NCBI GenBank assembly: GCA_028824015.1
Contig: JAPPFC010000046.1
Location: forward strand, 1 to 64,000
Reading direction: 5' to 3'
From: a bacterium
Lineage (GTDB): Bacteria; Actinomycetota; Acidimicrobiia; Spongiisociales; ZC4RG35
DNA: 64,000 nt
In this document: positions 43,417 to 53,447 of the stretch, in pieces
Layout of the letters: the number at the start of each line of letters is the position of its first letter
How positions within the stretch are numbered: the stretch's first letter is position 1
Notes under the pieces: model-generated
Databases searched by the model: none
The model's input: only the letters and a program-made list of their open reading frames with translations
What the model was told of the DNA's origin: nothing
Translations under genes and position numbers: made by a program

Positions 43417-45438
43417 GTGAGGAAGTTCTTAGCAGTATTAGGAGTTCTCGCTCTCTTGGCCGCGGCCTGCGGAGACGGAGACGACGAACCCACCGCCACC
43501 ACTGAAGCAGCGGTGGTAACCACCACTGCCGCGCCGGCCGAGACTCCCGATGAACCCGCCGATGAACCGGCCGATGAACCGGCGCCGGCAGAGCCCGACT
43601 ATCCCGAGATCACCATCAATATCGGGCATTCGGGCGCTCCTGACGGTTATGCCGACGTGGCGGCCGTCAAGTTCAAGGAACTTGTCGAAGAGGGTTCCGG
43701 AGGCCAGATCACGGTGGAGGTGTTCCCCTCCTCGCAGATCGGTTCCGAGCGTGAGTTGGTGGAAGGCGCCCAGTTGGGATCCATCGACGCGGGCGTGGTG
43801 TTCGCCGGGATTCTCGAGAGCTTCGTTCCCGAGATGGGAGTGGTGAATCTGCCGTTCCTGTTCGACGGACAGGACCACGTGAACGCGGTGTTCGACGGCC
43901 CGGTGGGACGCGAACTCCTCGGTCTGGCTGAGGGTGTGGGCATCAAGGCCCTGGCCATCGGCCAGTTCGGTTTGCGTTCGATGATGAACAGCCAACGTCC
44001 CATCTATACCCCCTCCGATGCGGCCGGTCTGAAATTCCGGGTGCCGGAGTCCGACATCTACATCAGCACCTATGAGTCGGTGGGCGCCAATCCGGTGCCG
44101 CTGCCCGGTCCGGAGATCTTCACGTCGCTCCAGAACGGAGTGGTGGACGGAACCGGCGCGCCGATCTTCGCGGCGGTCACCCAGAAGTACTACGAGACGC
44201 CCGTGCAATACCTGTCGCTCACCGAGCACATCTACGCGGCGCTTCTCATGTTCATGTCGGGTGAGCTGTGGGACAGCCTGACCCCCAAGGCCCAGGACCT
44301 GATCGAGCAGTCGGCTTCCGCCGCTGCCGCGCATCAGCGGGCCGAAGCAGCCAAGTTGGACGCCGGCTACCTCGCCGAGTTGCAGGACCAGGGCTGGCAG
44401 GTCAACGACGTCGACAAGGGCCTGTTCCGCACCGCGGTGGCGGGCGTCTATGACGCCAATCCCCACCTGGCGGAGTGGGCCGACCGGATCCGGGTTGTGA
44501 GCCCGAGCGGCGCCATGGACGTATCTCTCTTGCCCGAGATCACCATCAACATCGGGCATTCGGGCGCTCCTGACGGTTATGCCGATGTGGCGGCCGTCAA
44601 GTTCAAGGAGTTGGTCGAGGAGCGCTCCGGCGGCCGCATGACCGTGGAGGTCTTCCCCTCCTCGCAGATCGGTTCCGAGCGTGAGTTGGTCGAGGGCGCC
44701 CAGTTGGGTTCCATCGACGCCGGTGTGGTGTTCGCCGGACTCCTGGAGAGCTTCGTTCCCGAGATGGGCGTGGTGAACCTGCCCTTCCTGTTCGACGGCC
44801 AGGACCACGTCGACGCGGTGTTCGACGGTCCGGTGGGACGCGAACTACTCGGTCTGGCCGAGGAAGTGGACATCAAGGCCCTGGCCATCGGTCAGTTCGG
44901 TCTGCGTTCGATGATGAACAGCCAGCGGCCGATCTATACCCCCTCGGATGCGGCGGGCCTGAAGTTCCGGGTTCCCGAATCCGACATCTATATCCGGACC
45001 TATGAGTTGGTGGGCGCCAATCCGGTGCCGCTGCCGGGTCCGGAGATCTTCACTTCGTTGCAGAACGGGGTGGTTGACGGGACCGGCGCGCCGATCTTCG
45101 CGGCGGTCACCCAGAAGTACTACGAGACGCCGGTCAAGTACCTGTCGCTCACCGAGCACATCTACGCGGCGCTTCTCATGTTCATGGGTGGCGAGTTGTG
45201 GGACGGCCTGGGTCCGGCCGCACAGCAGTTGGTGCAGCAGGCTGCCATCGAGGCCGCCGCGCATCAGCGGGCCGAAGCGGCCAAGCTGGACGCCGGTTAC
45301 CTCGCAGAACTGCAGAACCAGGGCTGGGAGGTCAACGACGTAGACAAGGACGCTTTCCGCGCTGCGGTTGCGGGCGTCTATGACGAACGGCCCGAGTTGG
45401 CCGAGTGGGCGGACCGCATTCGTGCGGCTGCTCCGTGA
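43417..45438 (+). CDS. dctP: TRAP transporter solute-binding protein (DctP type), internally duplicated
   Basis: GTG 43417 follows GGAGGT. The signal peptide ends in a lipobox with Cys18 (LLAAACGDG), followed by a Thr/Glu/Pro-rich linker. Two complete DctP domains follow, from residues 63 and 373, both beginning PEITINIGHSGAPDG and both containing PSSQIGSERELVEGAQLGS and GLKFRVPESDIYI. At 673 residues it is about twice the normal length of one DctP. The repeat unit is 930 bp. DctP captures a carboxylate outside the cell for the DctQM permease. Confidence 0.9.
   Translation: MRKFLAVLGVLALLAAACGDGDDEPTATTEAAVVTTTAAPAETPDEPADEPADEPAPAEPDYPEITINIGHSGAPDGYADVAAVKFKELVEEGSGGQITVEVFPSSQIGSERELVEGAQLGSIDAGVVFAGILESFVPEMGVVNLPFLFDGQDHVNAVFDGPVGRELLGLAEGVGIKALAIGQFGLRSMMNSQRPIYTPSDAAGLKFRVPESDIYISTYESVGANPVPLPGPEIFTSLQNGVVDGTGAPIFAAVTQKYYETPVQYLSLTEHIYAALLMFMSGELWDSLTPKAQDLIEQSASAAAAHQRAEAAKLDAGYLAELQDQGWQVNDVDKGLFRTAVAGVYDANPHLAEWADRIRVVSPSGAMDVSLLPEITINIGHSGAPDGYADVAAVKFKELVEERSGGRMTVEVFPSSQIGSERELVEGAQLGSIDAGVVFAGLLESFVPEMGVVNLPFLFDGQDHVDAVFDGPVGRELLGLAEEVDIKALAIGQFGLRSMMNSQRPIYTPSDAAGLKFRVPESDIYIRTYELVGANPVPLPGPEIFTSLQNGVVDGTGAPIFAAVTQKYYETPVKYLSLTEHIYAALLMFMGGELWDGLGPAAQQLVQQAAIEAAAHQRAEAAKLDAGYLAELQNQGWEVNDVDKDAFRAAVAGVYDERPELAEWADRIRAAAP
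43603..44532 (+). repeat. First unit of 930-bp internal tandem duplication
   Basis: This unit spans from CCCGAGATCACC at 43603 to just before the second occurrence at 44533. The two units agree over most positions but differ at many third-codon positions, so the duplication is not brand new. Confidence 0.85.
44533..45430 (+). repeat. Second unit of 930-bp internal tandem duplication
   Basis: This unit begins with CCCGAGATCACC at 44533 and ends near the stop of the binding-protein gene. It has 310 codons of offset to the first unit and lacks the first unit's final linker. Confidence 0.85.
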
Positions 45439-45938
45439 GCTCGGTAGCCGGATTAATTAGCAAAGGCAGTCGGAGCACCATTTCGGTGCTCCGACTGCTC
45501 CTAGCCGTACTGCTGGGTGGCCTGTCGCTTCTGATGTTCGTACAGGTCGTGATGCGGTACGTATTCAACTCTTCGATCGTGTGGTCCGAGGAGGTGCCCA
45601 GAATCATGCTCATCTGGCTGGTGTTCGTGGGGCTGGCCACCACCATGAAGGGCAAGCACCTGATCATCGACGTCGTGCGGGAACGTCGCTGGATAGCGGT
45701 GGTCTCCATCGTCTTCAAGTGGGCCATGCTGATCTTCTTCGTTTACTACGGGACGGTCCTGGCCACCAAGGTGTCGGGCCAGACCATGCCGATCACCAAG
45801 ATCTCCCGCTCCTGGCAGTACGCGGCCGCTCCGGTGGGCGCCGCCCTGGCGCTGATCCTGGGAGTGGACGAGATCTTCGACTTGTTCCGGTCATCTGATT
45901 CCGAAGAGCCGTCCTCCGTGGCGGCTGCGGAGGCCTGA
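45435..45938 (+). CDS. dctQ: TRAP transporter small permease (DctQ)
   Basis: GTG at 45435 overlaps the stop of the binding-protein gene. The 167-residue product has four membrane helices and the DctQ signature RYVFNSSIVWSEEVPRIMLIW, split over helix and loop. It pairs with DctM in the membrane. It ends 3 bases before the DctM start. Confidence 0.88.
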   Translation: MSSVAGLISKGSRSTISVLRLLLAVLLGGLSLLMFVQVVMRYVFNSSIVWSEEVPRIMLIWLVFVGLATTMKGKHLIIDVVRERRWIAVVSIVFKWAMLIFFVYYGTVLATKVSGQTMPITKISRSWQYAAAPVGAALALILGVDEIFDLFRSSDSEEPSSVAAAEA

Positions 45939-45941
45939 GCC

Positions 45942-47231
45942 ATGCTGCTGCTGGCGGTGTTCGGGACGTTGTTCCTGTTGCTGCTGCTGCGGGTGCCGAT
46001 CTTTGCGGCGCTGGGCGGCGCCACCATCGTGGGCGTCCTGCTGCACCCTTCGGCCTCCCTCATCGACGTGGTGCGCAACTCCATCAACGGGATCGACTCG
46101 TTGGTGCTGTTCGCGGCGCCCCTGTTCGTTCTGGCCGGCAATCTCATCCTGGCGGGAGGCGTTTCCCGGCGTTTGATCGGCTGGGTGGACCTTCTGTTCG
46201 GTTTCAGCCGGCTCCGCCTGGCATATGTGAACGTGTTCGGGTCGATGTTCTTCGGGGGGATCTCCGGTTCGGCCACCGCCGACTCCGCAGCCATCGGCTC
46301 GGTGCTGGTGCCGGAGATGAAAAAGGGTGGGTATCCCACTCCCTACGCGGCGGGGGTCACCGCCGCTTCGAGTTCAATAGGGATCATCGTCCCTCCCAGC
46401 GTGCCGATGATCCTGGCGGGGGCCGCCACCAGTGTCTCGATCACCAAGCTGTTCGTGGGAGGGTATGGCCCCGGAATACTGATCGCGGTCTCCCTGGCCA
46501 CGGTGGCCTGGATAAGGCGCCCGCGTTCGGGCGTGAAGGCCGATCCCGAGAGGTTCAGCATCAAGCGCATGGGCACAACCACCTACAAGGCGTTGCCCGC
46601 CCTGGTCTTCCCGGTGGTGATCATGGGAGGGATCCTGGCCGGAGTCTTCACGGCCACCGAAGCAGCGGCGGTGGCGGTGGTCTATTCGCTTCTGGTAGCC
46701 ATCTTCATATACCGGGAGATGGGATGGAAGACCTTCTTCAAAATTCTCAAGGAATCGGCCGAGTTCGCCGCGGTGTTGTTCATCATCGTCGCCACGGCCC
46801 AGGCTTTCGGGCGGTTCCTGACCCTGGCCAAGGTGCCCCAGCAGCTCACCGAGTTCATGCTGGGATTCTCGAGCACCCCGGCGGTGGTGATCCTGATGAT
46901 GATCCTTCTCCTCCTGATCATCGGCACCTTCATGGAGACAGTCCCCATCGTGCTGGTGCTCTATCCCATCCTCGAGCCGATCGCCACCTCACCCGAGGTG
47001 GGGATGGATCCCATCCACTACGGTGTCACCTTCATGGGCGCCATCGCGGTCGGCCTCCTCACTCCCCCCTACGGAGTTCTCCTGTTCGTCAACTCCAAGA
47101 TCGCCGGGATCCCCTCTGCCGACCTGATCAGGGCCGTGCTGCCCTTCATCGCGGTGCTCATCGTCGACGTGCTGATCATCGCCTTCTTCCCACCCCTCAC
47201 TCTGGGGCCGGTGAATTTCTTCTTCGGCTAG
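45942..47231 (+). CDS. dctM: TRAP transporter large permease (DctM)
   Basis: The 429-residue large subunit has about 12 membrane helices. It carries the characteristic GSMFFGGISGSATADSAAIGS and PPSVPMILAGAATSVSITKLF segments. It drives solute uptake by a sodium or proton gradient together with DctQ and DctP. Confidence 0.92.
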   Translation: MLLLAVFGTLFLLLLLRVPIFAALGGATIVGVLLHPSASLIDVVRNSINGIDSLVLFAAPLFVLAGNLILAGGVSRRLIGWVDLLFGFSRLRLAYVNVFGSMFFGGISGSATADSAAIGSVLVPEMKKGGYPTPYAAGVTAASSSIGIIVPPSVPMILAGAATSVSITKLFVGGYGPGILIAVSLATVAWIRRPRSGVKADPERFSIKRMGTTTYKALPALVFPVVIMGGILAGVFTATEAAAVAVVYSLLVAIFIYREMGWKTFFKILKESAEFAAVLFIIVATAQAFGRFLTLAKVPQQLTEFMLGFSSTPAVVILMMILLLLIIGTFMETVPIVLVLYPILEPIATSPEVGMDPIHYGVTFMGAIAVGLLTPPYGVLLFVNSKIAGIPSADLIRAVLPFIAVLIVDVLIIAFFPPLTLGPVNFFFG

Positions 47232-47252
47232 CTTTCCATGAAAGGTCCTTCC

Positions 47253-48647
47253 ATGTCCAGAGACGACTTCCGCATCCTCTCCTTCGTGAACCACATCCCC
47301 GTCCACCCCAGGGTGGATGAGTTCCTGGCCGAGACGGCCCGCCGGGGAGTGGACGCGGTGTGCTCGCAGGGCACCGGGATGGACTTCGGCCCTTACATGC
47401 TGGGGAGCGGCACCCAGTTCACCAGCGAGAACTTCCGTGAGAACGTCCGACCCTACATGCGCTTCGCCAAGGAACAAGGCGTTCCGTTCGTGTTCTCGGT
47501 GGGGATCGCCGGGGGGCGCACCCAGTTGGACGAGTGCCTCGACCGGGTGGACGAGATCACCTCGGAGGAGGACCTGTCTCTCCGGATCGCGGTGATCGAC
47601 GGAGAAGTCGACCGGGAGATGCTGACCGAGCGGATCAGAGACGGGGCGAAAGCCCCCCGGGCCGTGGAGTCGCCGCACCTCTCGGAGATGCTGACCCCCG
47701 AGGACGTCGAGGCGTCCGAGCACATAGTGGCGCAGATGGGGCCCGAGCCGATCATGGCGGCCCTGGAGGCCGGGGTGGACGGCGTGATCACCGGTCGGGC
47801 GCTCGATGTGGGGATATACATGGCCCCTCCGCTGGCGGCCGGATTCCCTCGCGGGTCCACCACCCACATGGCCAAGGTGCTGGAGTGCGCCGGCCTGGCG
47901 CTCCATCCCGGCGACCCGTCCGAGCCGATCTACGGAGTTCTGGAGCCCGACGCCATCACCGTCTACCCGGTGTCGGACACCCAGGCCGCCACGGCCCGGT
48001 CCATCGCCAGCCACTCCATGTACGAGCGGGACAATCCCTTCATGGAGAAGAACCCGGGAGGGTATCTCGACCTGACCGACGCCACCTACACCGAGGTCCC
48101 CGGTTCCGGGGTGCGCTCGGAGGGAGCGATCTGGGTTGACACGCCCTACACGATCAAGCTGGAAGGCGCCCGGCGAGAAGGGTACCGCACCATTGCCGTG
48201 TTCGGAGTGCGGGAACCGGCTTTCATCGACTGCCTGGACTGGTTCCTGGACAACATCCGCTCCACCATTGCCGGGTCACCGCGGTTCGGGCACCTGGACG
48301 AGGGCAAGCACTACAAGATCACTTTCGACCAGTACGGGCGAAACGGCGTGCTGGGGCCCAACGAGCCGCTCCGGGGACGGACGCCTCATGAGATCGGCCT
48401 GCTGGTGGACGTCATCGCCGAAACCCAGGAATTGGCCGAGAACCTGGCCTACTTTATCTGCATGGAACTGTGGATCAAGCCCTACCCGAACCGCCAGACG
48501 TCGGCGGGAAACCTGGCCACCCGGTTCGCTCCTCCCACCATCAATGTGGGCCCGGCGTTCTCTTTCAATGTGTGGCATCTCCTGGAGGTGGAGGACCCGC
48601 TGGAACTCTTCCCCTACCAGGTGGTCGATTTCCCGAGGGGGCGCTGA
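47253..48647 (+). CDS. DUF1446/AtuA-like protein
   Basis: ATG 47253 (MSRDDFRIL) has AAAGG at a good distance; ATG 47238 is an alternative. The roughly 464-residue protein matches DUF1446, the acyclic terpene utilisation AtuA family. Segments are PRVDEFLAETARRGVDAVCSQ, GGRTQLDECLDRVDE and GVITGRALDVGIYMAPPL. AtuA's exact reaction is unknown; the family occurs in carboxylic acid and terpene catabolic operons. Here it follows the TRAP genes by 21 bases and is followed by DUF4387, its usual companion. Confidence 0.85.
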   Translation: MSRDDFRILSFVNHIPVHPRVDEFLAETARRGVDAVCSQGTGMDFGPYMLGSGTQFTSENFRENVRPYMRFAKEQGVPFVFSVGIAGGRTQLDECLDRVDEITSEEDLSLRIAVIDGEVDREMLTERIRDGAKAPRAVESPHLSEMLTPEDVEASEHIVAQMGPEPIMAALEAGVDGVITGRALDVGIYMAPPLAAGFPRGSTTHMAKVLECAGLALHPGDPSEPIYGVLEPDAITVYPVSDTQAATARSIASHSMYERDNPFMEKNPGGYLDLTDATYTEVPGSGVRSEGAIWVDTPYTIKLEGARREGYRTIAVFGVREPAFIDCLDWFLDNIRSTIAGSPRFGHLDEGKHYKITFDQYGRNGVLGPNEPLRGRTPHEIGLLVDVIAETQELAENLAYFICMELWIKPYPNRQTSAGNLATRFAPPTINVGPAFSFNVWHLLEVEDPLELFPYQVVDFPRGR

Positions 48648-48970
48648 TGCCTCGGCTTCGCGACTTCGCCAAGACCCTTCGGTCCAAGAACTGCGATCCC
48701 TTCAACACCACCTTCGATGTTTTCTTCGACTCCGAAGAGGCTTACCGGCAGGTGAAGGACTCGGGACGGATCACCGCCGAGGTGCTGGCGCCGCTGTACG
48801 GGCTCACCAACGACCAGGTGCTGGGCATCTACTTCCTGGACAATGCCCTGGCCTTCAAGGTCACCATGGTGAAGGACATCGCCTCCTCCGACCCGGCCTG
48901 CAAGGACGTGTTCGGCGCCCACCAGCATCTGATGCTCGCCGATCTCGAGATACCGGAGGAAAAGAGATGA
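48647..48970 (+). CDS. DUF4387 family protein
   Basis: ATG 48647 overlaps the DUF1446 stop. The 107-residue product shows the DUF4387 pattern RSKNCDPFNTTFDVFF and GRITAEVLAPLYGLTNDQV. It is nearly always found next to DUF1446 proteins; the two presumably act together. Its function is unknown. Its stop overlaps the start of the selenoprotein candidate. Confidence 0.88.
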   Translation: MPRLRDFAKTLRSKNCDPFNTTFDVFFDSEEAYRQVKDSGRITAEVLAPLYGLTNDQVLGIYFLDNALAFKVTMVKDIASSDPACKDVFGAHQHLMLADLEIPEEKR

Positions 48971-49506
48971 GACTGTTGGACCCCCGAGCCGAGGAGTACC
49001 GCCGGTTGGACGGCGCCGATCCCCTCAAACCCGTGGAAGCCGTGGAACTGAACGTGGGCATCCTCAACTCGCGCTGGGAGTCGATGACCCGTATAGCCGC
49101 ACTGGTGGATGAACGCCTCCGGCGCCTGTCGTTCATCAGAGACGTTCGGCACTGGAAGATCAAGCACTCCGAGCCCACGCCCCAGGAGGTGATCGATCAG
49201 GTGGTGGGTTACAGCCATTTCGCGGTGCTGGGACTCGGCAACTGAGGGGCTTGCACAGCGTGGAGTTGCCACGACGGGACCGAGTTGAGAAAGCGGGGGC
49301 TGGGAACGGTGGTGCTGATCACCGAGGCCTTCGAGGAGTTGGCCAAAGCCACCCTGGCCAGCCGGGGAGTGCCCGATCTGCCCATGGTGATCTTCCCGCA
49401 CCAGACCGAGGTGATGACCACCGAGGAGTTGCGGCCGTACGTGGAGTTGGCGGTCGACCATGAGATCGTCCCTCTCATCAAATCGGTCCGGGAACCCTTG
49501 GCCTGA
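48967..49506 (+). CDS. UGSC family protein, probable selenoprotein (TGA at 49243-49245 read as Sec)
   Basis: ATG 48967 has GGAGG upstream and overlaps the DUF4387 stop. Residues 1-92 end in HFAVLGLGN, where an in-frame TGA follows. The same frame continues GACTAWSCHDGTELRKRG, then LGTVVLITEAFEELAKATL, ending at TGA 49504-49506. The joined 179-residue protein has the layout of the UGSC (Sec-Gly-Ser-Cys) family, with U93-G-A-C here. A plain stop would split one recognisable domain exactly at its key motif. The reaction is unknown; a thiol/selenol redox or C-heteroatom chemistry is plausible. No Sec machinery genes lie in the window. Confidence 0.85.
49259..49273 (+). promoter_or_regulatory. Candidate bacterial SECIS hairpin
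   Basis: CGTGG (49259-49263) pairs with CCACG (49269-49273) around a 5-base loop AGTTG. The loop begins 18 bases after the TGA and has a G in its second position, as expected of bacterial SECIS elements. The stem is short, so this is supportive but not proof. Confidence 0.55.
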
Positions 49507-49528: not shown

Positions 49529-50560
49529 ATGGAACTGTTGTCCCGGGAGCTTGACTGCCCGACCGATCTTGGCCTGGACGCGATCCAGGACTGGTTTCAC
49601 CGAGAGGACCTGTCCGACGGACTGCCAGTGATACCCCCCACGCCCGGGCGGGTGGCCGCCATGGTGGCCGGGAGTGGACGCGACCCGGCCGAAGAGGTCG
49701 GGATCATCGACCCCAAGCGGGGCGTGGCCACCGTGGAGAAGTTGGCTATCAATGCGGTGATGGCCGGATGCCTTCCCTCTTACATGCCGGTGATCGTGGC
49801 CGCCGTCTCGGCCATGTGCGAACCCATCTTCAACCTCCACGCCATCCAATCGACCACCAACCCGGCCACGCCCCTGGTGGTGGTGAACGGGCCGATCCGC
49901 CGGGAACTCTCCATGAACACCGACCGCAACCTGCTCGGTCCGGGCAACCGGGCCAACGCCACCATCGGCCGGGCCCTGCGGTTGGCCATGCGCAACCTGG
50001 GGGGCGCCTACATCGGCGTGGACCAGGCCACCCACGGAAGCCCGGCCAAGTACAGCCTGGTGGTCCCCGAGGACGAGGAGTCGAGTCCCTGGGAGCCGCT
50101 GCACGTCCAGTTGGGGTACCGGCCGGATGACTCCACCGTCTCGGTGGCGGGCATCGAGTCGGTGATCAACTCCACGGCGGTGTGGTGGACGCCCGACTCG
50201 CTGGCCAAGATGCTGGCCAAGACCCTCCGCTCCACCGCCACCAGCCAGTTCTTCTCCCGGGGGACCCTCACCCTGTTGATGAGCCCTGCCCACGCCGGGG
50301 TGTTCGCCCGGGACGGGTGGAGCAAGAAGAGACTTCGCGAGCACCTGTGGGAGATGGCCAAGGTCCCGCTGTCCGACTACCCGCCGGAGGGCAATATCCC
50401 GCAGGGCGACTGGACGGTGGATGAAGACCGCGTGTTGATTTGCGAGACGCCCGACGATCTGCGGATCGTGGTCGGGGGCGGCACCGAGGGAAACGCCTCC
50501 CACTCGGTTTTCTTCTCGGGATTCTGCCTCTCCAAGGGCGTGACCAGGAGGATCGAGTGA
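49529..50560 (+). CDS. Partner protein of the UGSC family, 343 residues
   Basis: The protein has the pattern SDGLPVIPPTPGRVAAMVAG, then GVATVEKLAINAVMAGC and PSYMPVIVAAVSAM. I recall this arrangement from proteins adjacent or fused to UGSC domains, with an invariant AINAVMAGC cysteine. The enzymatic role is unknown. The ATG follows GGAGG by about 12 bases and lies 22 bases after the UGSC gene. Its stop overlaps the acyl-CoA dehydrogenase start. Confidence 0.75.
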   Translation: MELLSRELDCPTDLGLDAIQDWFHREDLSDGLPVIPPTPGRVAAMVAGSGRDPAEEVGIIDPKRGVATVEKLAINAVMAGCLPSYMPVIVAAVSAMCEPIFNLHAIQSTTNPATPLVVVNGPIRRELSMNTDRNLLGPGNRANATIGRALRLAMRNLGGAYIGVDQATHGSPAKYSLVVPEDEESSPWEPLHVQLGYRPDDSTVSVAGIESVINSTAVWWTPDSLAKMLAKTLRSTATSQFFSRGTLTLLMSPAHAGVFARDGWSKKRLREHLWEMAKVPLSDYPPEGNIPQGDWTVDEDRVLICETPDDLRIVVGGGTEGNASHSVFFSGFCLSKGVTRRIE

Positions 50561-51663
50561 ACGGGGACCTGCTGGATCATCTTCGCTCCGAGGTGGAACC
50601 CCGGGTGGACGGCTGGGAGGAGGAAGGCCACGTCCCGCCCGAAGCGCTCTGGGAGGTGGGGCGCCGCTTCGGGCTGCTGGGTATGATGACTCCCGCCGAC
50701 CGGGGCGGGAATCCCAGGCCGTGGGCGGAGATCGTGGCGGTGGCCGGCGCCCTGGGCCGTGTGTATCGACCCTTCGGGTTCCTGCTCACCAACGCACTGA
50801 TCGCCGGGTACCTGGCGGAGGTCGCCAACGACCTGCAGTGGAACAGGCGCGGGCTTCCCATCGTGGAAGGCCGGGCCGCTTCGGTGCTGGCTCTGAACGA
50901 GCCCGGCTCCGGTAACGACCTGGCGGCCCTTGCGACCATTGCCGAAAGGCGTGACGGCGGTTTCCGGCTGACCGGGACCAAGACCTACATTCCCAACGCC
51001 GATCAGGTCGACTTCCTGCTGGTGGCCGCCCGGGAAGCCCCGGATGCCGATCCGTCGATCTACGCGGTCGATCCCGGCTCGCGGGGAAGCGAGGTGCGGC
51101 GACTGGGCCCGACCATGGCGTTGCGAGGAGTGCACCTGTGCGAGGTCGAGTTCGACGGGTGCCTCGTGGCCCCCGAGGACCGGATAGGGGAGATGAGAGA
51201 TCTGTGGCCCCATCTGGGAAGGAGTCGATTGCTCACCGCCGGTCTGGCATTGGGATGCGCCACCGAGGCACTGGAGTTGGCTCTCGAATACACCGCCCGG
51301 ACCCGCCGGTTCGGAAAGCCCCTCAACCGCCAGGGCGCGGTCCAGCAGAGCCTCGCCGGGATGGGAATAGCGGTGGAGACCGGCCGGATCTATCTGGATC
51401 ACGCCGCGTCGCGGGTCGACGCCGGCGAACGGGCGTCGCTTCAGATCTCGGCGGCCAAGGTGTATGCGACGGATCTGGCGATGAGCGTGACGACCTCGGC
51501 CACCCAACTCATGGGAGGGTGGGGATACCTTACCTCCGGCAAGGTGGAGAGGCTGATGAGAGAGGCGAAACTCAACCAGATCGTGGACGGGGCAAACGAG
51601 ATCCACCGCACCCTGATCGCCAGGGAGTTGTCCGACCGATACTCAGAGAAGGGAGAGAAATGA
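50557..51663 (+). CDS. Acyl-CoA dehydrogenase family protein
   Basis: GTG 50557 overlaps the previous stop. The 368-residue flavoprotein has ALNEPGSGNDLAAL for FAD/substrate contact, GFRLTGTKTYIPNADQVDF, and IVDGANEIHRTLIARELSDR with the catalytic Glu position in the NEI segment. It oxidises a CoA thioester to the enoyl form. It is slightly shorter than typical 380-residue members. Confidence 0.85.
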   Translation: MNGDLLDHLRSEVEPRVDGWEEEGHVPPEALWEVGRRFGLLGMMTPADRGGNPRPWAEIVAVAGALGRVYRPFGFLLTNALIAGYLAEVANDLQWNRRGLPIVEGRAASVLALNEPGSGNDLAALATIAERRDGGFRLTGTKTYIPNADQVDFLLVAAREAPDADPSIYAVDPGSRGSEVRRLGPTMALRGVHLCEVEFDGCLVAPEDRIGEMRDLWPHLGRSRLLTAGLALGCATEALELALEYTARTRRFGKPLNRQGAVQQSLAGMGIAVETGRIYLDHAASRVDAGERASLQISAAKVYATDLAMSVTTSATQLMGGWGYLTSGKVERLMREAKLNQIVDGANEIHRTLIARELSDRYSEKGEK

Positions 51664-52424
51664 GCGATCAAGCTTCTTCTGTGGCCGTGATAACCGGCGG
51701 GGCCAGCGGCATCGGCTGGAAGACCGCCGAGGTGCTGCTGGAACGCCGGCCGGACGTGGCCTGCGCCCTGGTCGACCTCAACGAGGCGCAGTCCGCAGAG
51801 TTGATCGAACGCTTCGGGGAGGACCGGGTCCGTTTCGTGCAGTGCGACGTGACCGATCCGGCGGCTGTGAACGCCGCGGCAGCGGGGATCGAGGGGTGGA
51901 AGAGCCCGATCAGGATGCTGGTCACCTGCGCGGGGATCCAGATCGTGGGGGACAGCTTCGAGTTGCCGGTCGAGCATTGGCAGAAGGTAACCGGGGTGCA
52001 CCTGAACGGGACCTTCTACTGGTGTCAGGCGGCGGGGAGGGCCATGAGGGACGGGGGAGGGGGATCGATCGTCACCGTGGGCTCGATAGCACAGGACTTC
52101 GGGTTTCCCGGCCGGGCCGCCTACACGACGTCGAAGGCGGGGATCGGGGGCCTCACCAGGGTGCTGGCGGTGGAATGGGCCCCGGCGGGGATAAGGGTCA
52201 ACCAGGTGATCCCCGGGATGGTGGAGACCCCGCTCTTCCAGCGGGCTGCCGCCCAGGGAATCGTGGACGCCGAGGCGGCCGCTTCCGAGCATGCCCTGGG
52301 TCGGCTGGGGACCACTGGGGAGTTGGCCGAGGCCATCGTGTTTTTGTTGTCGGAACAGGCAAGTTTTATCACCGGGGAACTGGTGCATGTGGACGGGGGC
52401 TTCAGGGCCCAGCGTCTCGAGTAA
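51660..52424 (+). CDS. SDR family oxidoreductase
   Basis: ATG 51660 overlaps the previous stop (ATGA). The 254-residue classical SDR has TGGASGIG near residue 13, the catalytic YTTSK, and a C-terminal ASFITGELVHVDGG typical of 3-oxoacyl-ACP or hydroxyacyl-CoA dehydrogenases. In this operon it would oxidise the hydroxyacyl product to a beta-keto compound for the BKACE enzyme. Confidence 0.87.
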   Translation: MSDQASSVAVITGGASGIGWKTAEVLLERRPDVACALVDLNEAQSAELIERFGEDRVRFVQCDVTDPAAVNAAAAGIEGWKSPIRMLVTCAGIQIVGDSFELPVEHWQKVTGVHLNGTFYWCQAAGRAMRDGGGGSIVTVGSIAQDFGFPGRAAYTTSKAGIGGLTRVLAVEWAPAGIRVNQVIPGMVETPLFQRAAAQGIVDAEAAASEHALGRLGTTGELAEAIVFLLSEQASFITGELVHVDGGFRAQRLE

Positions 52425-52442: not shown

Positions 52443-53447
52443 ATGGCAAAAGACAGAATCAACTGGGACAGAGTCAACGCATACATGGAGCGGAGCAAGA
52501 CCCGCGCCGTGCTGAAGCCCTACGGGATGCCCGACATCACCAACCCCTTCACCTCCGCATACGCCGATGTGGACGTGTCGCCGCGCTGGCCCATCTCAGA
52601 GGAGGTGGCCATCTCGGTTGCGCTTACCGGTGGGTTCTTCATGACCCGCCACAACCCCGCGCAGCCCATCTCGGAGCAGGAGATCATGGAGGCAGGGAGG
52701 GCCTGCATGCGGGCGGGCGCTACGGCTCTGCACATTCACGTTCGGAACGAGGCGGAGTGGTCCATCCTGGACCTGGCCCGGTTCGTCACCATAATCGAAC
52801 CGCTCCGTGACGAGTTCGAGGACCTGTATGTCTCGGCCGGAGAGGTGGCGATCGGTCCCGACGACTGGAACGAGATGATCAAGATCTCCAACTCGGGCCT
52901 GATCACCGGGTCGCCAGTCAACACCACCGCCACCTTCTGCGGCGACACCCTGTTCGCAAAGCCCCCGGCGGTGGTGATCGAAAAGACCCGTATCCTGATG
53001 GAGGCCGGAGTAAAGCCCGAGATCGCCGTCTACACCGACGCCGACGTGGACAATGCTCGCCGGTATCTGATCGAATCGGGCCTGCTGGAAGAGCCCCTCT
53101 ACTGGGTGGTCCTGCCGGCGCTTCCCGGCGGCAGTCCCATGCACAACCCCCGCCAGATGATCCAGGGCCTCACCCGCATCGTCGATTCGATATTCGACAT
53201 CAACCCCGACTCGATCGTCTCGGTGTGCGCGGCGGGCCGTCCCTCGGTCTACCTGGTCACCCTGGCCATGCTGATGGGACTCCACGTCCGCCTGGGAATG
53301 GAGGACACCGTCTGGCGCTACCCGCATCGTGACGAGTTGATAGCCTCCAACCTCCAGCAACTCCAAGCCGTGACAGCCATAGCCGAAAACCTAGGCCGCA
53401 CTCCCATGTCCGGCGCACGCTACCGAGAACTTTTGGGAGTGAGCTAA
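52443..53447 (+). CDS. BKACE family beta-keto acid cleavage enzyme (DUF849)
   Basis: This 334-residue TIM barrel matches BKACE: AISVALTGGFFMTRHNPAQP, the zinc ligands in ALHIHVRNE, then GLITGSPVNTTATFCGD, and PSVYLVTLAMLMGLHVRLGMED split over strands. BKACE enzymes condense a beta-keto acid with acetyl-CoA to give acetoacetate and a new CoA ester. It is the last gene of the TRAP-DUF1446-UGSC operon. Confidence 0.88.
   Translation: MAKDRINWDRVNAYMERSKTRAVLKPYGMPDITNPFTSAYADVDVSPRWPISEEVAISVALTGGFFMTRHNPAQPISEQEIMEAGRACMRAGATALHIHVRNEAEWSILDLARFVTIIEPLRDEFEDLYVSAGEVAIGPDDWNEMIKISNSGLITGSPVNTTATFCGDTLFAKPPAVVIEKTRILMEAGVKPEIAVYTDADVDNARRYLIESGLLEEPLYWVVLPALPGGSPMHNPRQMIQGLTRIVDSIFDINPDSIVSVCAAGRPSVYLVTLAMLMGLHVRLGMEDTVWRYPHRDELIASNLQQLQAVTAIAENLGRTPMSGARYRELLGVS

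Follow-up and report, generated by a model that had tools for sequence, protein, structure and literature searches.

A probable UGSC-family selenoprotein gene and its near-constant partner gene in an actinobacterial operon

The window, by which we mean the whole 64-kb stretch of DNA analyzed here, carries an operon that runs in the order TRAP transporter (DctP, DctQ, DctM), AtuA, DUF4387, UGSC, partner, acyl-CoA dehydrogenase, short-chain dehydrogenase (SDR) and beta-keto acid cleavage enzyme (BKACE). Its features are as follows.

43417-47231, forward strand: TRAP transporter genes (PF03480, PF04290, PF06808)
43417-45438, forward strand: DctP gene, two DctP domains in one ORF
about 45405-45938, forward strand: DctQ gene
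45942-47231, forward strand: DctM gene
47238-48647, forward strand: AtuA-family gene (PF07287, 73 bits)
48650-48970, forward strand: DUF4387 gene (PF14330, 94.9 bits)
48967-49506, forward strand: UGSC-family gene, very probably encoding a selenoprotein of 179 aa in which residue 93 is Sec
49243-49245, forward strand: in-frame TGA, very probably read as selenocysteine (U93 of UGAC)
49252-49254, forward strand: codon of Cys96, presumed to act as resolving Cys in the U-x-x-C pair
49259-49273, forward strand: bacterial SECIS-like hairpin, CGTGG-AGTTG-CCACG
49529-50560, forward strand: partner gene, encoding 343 aa and presumably a second subunit
50548-51663, forward strand: acyl-CoA dehydrogenase gene, start approximate (PF00441/PF02770)
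51657-52424, forward strand: SDR gene, start approximate (PF13561)
52443-53447, forward strand: BKACE gene (PF05853, 154.7 bits)

The two DctP solute-binding domains follow one another within a single frame, as a tandem duplication of the TRAP binding protein. An orthologous locus from another family has the same arrangement of genes between AtuA and the acyl-CoA dehydrogenase.

The UGSC gene starts with an ATG that overlaps the stop codon of the upstream DUF4387 gene (ATGA), and GGAGG lies 7 nt upstream of it. Ninety-two codons lead to HFAVLGLGN and the TGA at 49243-49245, the sole stop within the frame; the frame then continues (GACTAWSCHDGTEL...PLA) for 86 codons to the terminal TGA at 49504-49506. 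The first-pass annotation had proposed that one frame runs through the internal TGA and that the second half is the remainder of a UGSC domain. Both proposals held. When the TGA is read as Sec, the protein matches the Pfam UGSC family (PF24696) with 101.6 bits (cut-off 25, E 6.8e-29) over residues 3-164, so that the match crosses the TGA. NCBIfam UGSC_fam (NF041046) matches the protein as well, but with 71 bits, short of the 125 that its curated cut-off demands. For this reason the protein is placed in the broader Pfam family and not in the NF041046 equivalog. Gene callers that stop at the TGA could overlook such a gene, which in addition scores under the equivalog cut-off.

UGSC is a known selenoprotein family, described by 2008 in the GOS selenoproteome under the name 'UGSC-containing protein' (PMC2398784). 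The family is thus already known, and the window gene adds a divergent member to a family without known function. Its protein has Sec at the first motif position (U93) and Cys three residues on (C96). U/C93, G94, C96, G111, F122 and G134 are invariant across 27 aligned UGSC proteins. The literal U-G-S-C, which gives the family its name but does not delimit it, is absent, the motif being U-G-A-C. It had been described earlier as one residue away from the Sec-Gly-Ser-Cys signature, which is correct, but the oddity of this was overstated, since UGAC and CGAC are present in many members of the family. A Gly-Ala motif is frequent among the well-scoring homologues, so U-G-A-C does not bar the protein from Pfam UGSC membership. 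The Ala is ordinary, because UGAC, UGSC and even UAAC are found in homologues; in the UAAC homologue (L028:1669), whose genome belongs to the same family, the Gly is changed as well.

The TGA is present at the same codon in six orthologues, five of them from congeners (proteins 93-98% identical) and the sixth from a species that belongs to the same order but to a different family (87%). In the last of these, the internal TGA is kept and the terminal stop is not TGA. By comparison of the sequences within the genus, the region after the TGA is under purifying selection: the variable columns number 9, 5 and 32 at codon positions 1, 2 and 3 (32 of 46 at the third), and dN is far below dS. In a scan of named genomes, for which Cys replaced Sec in the query, Cys was found at the Sec position in 42 loci from Actinomycetota, Pseudomonadota and one Acidobacteriota bin. 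Of the distinct homologous sequences compared, 46 have TGC or TGT at this position and 33 have TGA, and the alignment thus confirmed that the homologues bear Cys or Sec exactly where the window gene has TGA. On a tree of the partner proteins, Sec and Cys were switched at least 7 times, and at least 3 of these switches are forced by well-supported branches.

Among 296 genomes sampled from the phylum, 24 had a UGSC match, most of them with one internal TGA. Within the same class, 124 of 395 genomes match the window protein, with up to seven matches per genome and mostly with TGA. Sec use is therefore widespread in this actinobacterial class, and the earlier suggestion that it would be notable in this lineage was not borne out. 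Some genomes of the class (G427, G391, G534, G594, G596 and G651) hold five to seven matches each, and the family is expanded in the class on that account. The subfamily of the window gene forms a long isolated branch; beyond its own genus, only one further genome of the order has it.

The host genome (2.9 Mb, 60 contigs, 95% complete) encodes the machinery for Sec insertion. Its tRNA-Sec, on contig C12, scored 79.5 bits (cut-off 47) and has the anticodon TCA (= UCA). SelA (339.9 bits) and SelB (287.8 bits) are encoded by adjacent genes on contig 46, at about 93-98 kb. SelD (381.6 bits) is encoded on contig 16 and has an in-frame TGA of its own near the N-terminus, in GAGUGCK, which we take to be the known Sec/Cys position of this protein. 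All four components that the first-pass annotation had named as a check (selA, selB, selD and a tRNA-Sec with UCA anticodon) are present. A second UGSC gene, with the motif UGSC, lies on contig 46. A WhiB gene is located near selA-selB on the same contig, at 97248; the host genome has three WhiB proteins, by which it belongs to the Actinomycetota, and among 14 control genomes only Corynebacterium matches.

The hairpin downstream of the TGA is positioned as had been claimed, with 13 nt from the TGA to the stem (CGTGG/CCACG) and 18 nt to the loop (AGTTG). By the published rules, a bacterial SECIS element has an apical loop of 3-9 nt with G as its first or second base, an upper stem of 4-16 bp, and 16-37 nt separating the UGA from the loop (PMC13188914). 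In geometry, the window hairpin agrees with these rules through its 5 bp stem, its loop AGUUG (G at position 2) and its 18 nt spacing. Taken alone, the hairpin is not unusually stable: 25% of synonymous recodings are as stable, and z against shuffles is +0.6. Its energy was not significant and was rejected as stand-alone evidence. No Rfam family scored above threshold in the window.

The weight of the hairpin therefore rests on the comparison of homologues. Of the 33 distinct Sec sequences, 32 have a stable stem that places the loop 17-20 nt past the codon, versus 5 of the 46 distinct Cys sequences (Mann-Whitney p 2e-14, a value inflated by the relatedness of the sequences). The top pair of the stem is either G-C or C-G, with both sides changed, and all 90 cells are paired in 18 sequences (100%); since this is one covarying pair only, the covariation evidence is modest by itself. 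Silent compensation was also observed. SWSVHD is encoded as GTGG-AGT-GTCCAC and SCSVHD as GTGC-AGT-GTGCAC, the change of the Trp/Cys codon being matched by a silent change of the valine codon. Synonymous change is lower in codons +3 to +14 (2 of 11 variable, versus 76 of 127; p 0.01), a range picked after the hairpin had been seen. Of the five Cys homologues in which a stable hairpin persists at the SECIS position, four are fusions to the partner (L044, L062, L064 and L070). In these fused Cys forms, the hairpin may descend from an ancestor with Sec or result by coincidence from the coding sequence.

These results indicate that the gene product is very probably a genuine UGSC-family selenoprotein, with UGA codon 93 specifying selenocysteine. 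The codon would be decoded by the SelA, SelB, SelD and tRNA-Sec of the genome, guided by the downstream hairpin, and the comparative data support this. It is very unlikely that a near-cognate tRNA or a reassigned code inserts a different amino acid at the UGA: the site is the position of Cys/Sec exchange throughout the family, a tRNA-Sec with UCA anticodon is present together with SelA, SelB and SelD, the hairpin tracks the Sec forms, and TGA terminates other genes of the same operon. Still less probable is a real stop (a product of 92 residues, a pseudogene or a sequencing error), for although TGA also serves as the true stop of the same gene at 49504 and the window's own hairpin is statistically not unusual, the same TGA occurs in seven independent assemblies with purifying selection downstream, the Pfam domain runs through it, the invariant C96, G111, F122 and G134 lie beyond it, and the genome has the full Sec machinery.

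The selenoprotein itself is to be expected given the known family, and the value of the locus lies in what it suggests at the level of the family. What is new, and less certain, is the near-constant coupling to one unnamed partner and a distant likeness to GrdB/PrdB. A homologue of the partner (approximately 345 aa) adjoins the UGSC gene, whether Sec or Cys and on either side, in 85 of the 86 loci with a UGSC motif. The lone locus without an adjoining partner (L081) starts near a contig end. UGSC and partner occur in one frame in five ORFs (L044, L062, L064, L070 and the second copy in L056). A UGSC/Unknown_1 fusion was reported in the GOS study of 2008 (PMC2398784), and Unknown_1 may be the partner family. 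Because the partner adjoins so regularly and is at times fused, we consider it likely that the two proteins are the subunits of a single, two-part enzyme. None of 35 partner proteins had a credible Pfam or NCBIfam match, and a sequence search of solved structures gave no credible relative of the partner. Its predicted structure is good (pLDDT 87), and no fold match above background was found for it by Foldseek and VIA (best Z 5.6).

The AlphaFold2 model of the UGSC protein (pLDDT 83) predicts a doubly wound alpha/beta domain, in which Sec93 would lie between strand 3 (residues 85-91) and helix 3 (residues 94-109). Among the matches listed for this model are flavodoxin-, PurE-, receiver- and GTPase-like structures, and there is no thioredoxin entry among them. 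Foldseek returned no specific relative for either the UGSC or the partner model, and the picture for UGSC by Foldseek and VIA is that of a generic alpha/beta protein. Likewise, sequence searches of solved structures gave no credible relative for the UGSC, partner or GRDB profiles; a match to ARSA1, at 0.005, spans 36 residues.

The GRDB profile was built from ten actinobacterial PF07355 proteins read through their own in-frame TGA. When aligned to it by hhalign, the UGSC profile scored 39.8 (E 8e-5, probability 61%) over 80 columns, with Sec placed on Sec. In the controls, the maximum was 22.0 for 100 column-permuted profiles, and the scores were 17.0 for the reversed profile, 15.9 for an unrelated profile and 34.4 when U-G-x-C was masked. 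From these profiles, the Sec half of UGSC may be distantly related to the C-terminal domain of GrdB/PrdB, a relationship better than chance and short of proof. No PF07355 match was found for the UGSC protein or elsewhere in the host genome, and the likeness is only to the domain beyond the Pfam model. The Pfam GRDB model stops just short of the Sec codon. All twelve of the best actinobacterial GRDB-family genes (L114-L125) have an in-frame TGA followed by GTGTR.G, and the one checked for its neighbors (L116) adjoins a PF09338 Gly_reductase gene.

We also considered the partner as a relative of the GrdE/PrdA-type subunits (PF09338). No match to this Pfam family was found in the 35 partner proteins, and the hhalign score of 14.0 is within the permuted range, so this candidate was rejected. 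Since the partner showed no similarity to the PF09338 subunits, a pyruvoyl-type mechanism is unsupported. For the same reason, namely that the partner shows no relation to the PF09338 subunit that accompanies GRDB, UGSC is not filed as a member of GrdB/PrdB.

As to function, our best guess is that the pair acts as a substrate-specific reductase within a catabolic operon of TRAP/AtuA/acyl-CoA type. By analogy with GrdB/PrdB, the UGSC product would be the Sec-bearing subunit of a two-subunit reductase formed with the product of 49529-50560. The Sec would attack a substrate held by the partner, and a bond would be cleaved reductively; a selenenyl-sulfide between U93 and C96 would then form and be re-reduced by a thiol system, with Cys96 as the presumed resolving thiol. 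The gene order suggests that the substrate is probably a carboxylate or CoA ester imported by the TRAP transporter, and that the product might be handed to the acyl-CoA dehydrogenase, SDR and BKACE of the same operon. The pathway might thus consist of carboxylate uptake, activation, a reductive step by UGSC and partner, and a beta-oxidation-like breakdown. The neighbors of distant UGSC loci are mixed (thiolase-like, RraA-like, SGL, IclR, acyl-CoA dehydrogenase and P450), and no common pathway was found among them. As the other UGSC loci sit in different contexts, the operon informs on the substrate of the window's lineage only. Reductase chemistry for UGSC and partner, as suggested by the analogy, is plausible at somewhat less than even chances. 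A little more tentative is the broader proposal that the two form an unrecognised class of two-subunit selenoenzyme, in which a Sec domain distantly related to GrdB/PrdB would be combined with a different substrate-binding subunit, would catalyze a reductive step in carboxylate/acyl-CoA catabolism, and would have expanded in the actinobacterial class with repeated Sec/Cys exchange.

It is unlikely, though by no means negligibly so, that UGSC and partner form a non-redox enzyme such as a lyase, hydrolase or metal-binding protein, with Sec as nucleophile or ligand. The acyl-CoA type of the operon would suit such an enzyme, and the partner model shows a faint, low-quality likeness to class I fumarases and Toblerone-fold hydrolases (VIA Z about 5). 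However, this likeness does not rise above background (Z under 8, TM about 0.3), and the invariant U-x-x-C suggests a redox pair. We regard as slightly less probable again a general thiol-disulfide role, that of a thioredoxin-like redoxin, as the description of 2008 supposed. The U-x-x-C resembles redoxin motifs, and UGSC is listed among Trx-like folds in the literature (PMC2398784, PMC13188914). On the other hand, the model is doubly wound alpha/beta with the matches given above, and the near-obligate partner with its fusions, the several paralogues per genome and the catabolic operon suit a specific enzyme better.

Three known systems can be compared with the window protein. With the thioredoxin-like U-x-x-C selenoproteins, it shares a redox-type spacing of the motif, whereas its predicted fold and list of matches do not point to the Trx fold. 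With GrdB/PrdB, the selenoprotein subunit of the glycine, sarcosine, betaine and D-proline reductases (PF07355), it may share the C-terminal Sec domain, the two aligning in register as a hydrophobic strand, then U-G-x-x-T, then a helix, and the GRDB gene also lies beside the gene of a second subunit (L116). It differs from them in that the remainder of the GRDB domain is absent, the partner is not PF09338 and the profile probability is 61%. Within the UGSC family itself (PF24696/NF041046), the window member is distinguished by UGAC in place of UGSC, by an identity of only 20-30% to the other subfamilies, by its long isolated branch on the partner tree, by its score below the NCBIfam equivalog cut-off, and by its TRAP/AtuA/DUF4387/BKACE operon, AtuA and DUF4387 lying beside no other subfamily found. 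It nevertheless has in common with the family the whole domain across the TGA, the Sec position, the U-x-x-C pair, the exchange of Sec and Cys, a bSECIS-like hairpin and a second domain that is adjacent or fused.
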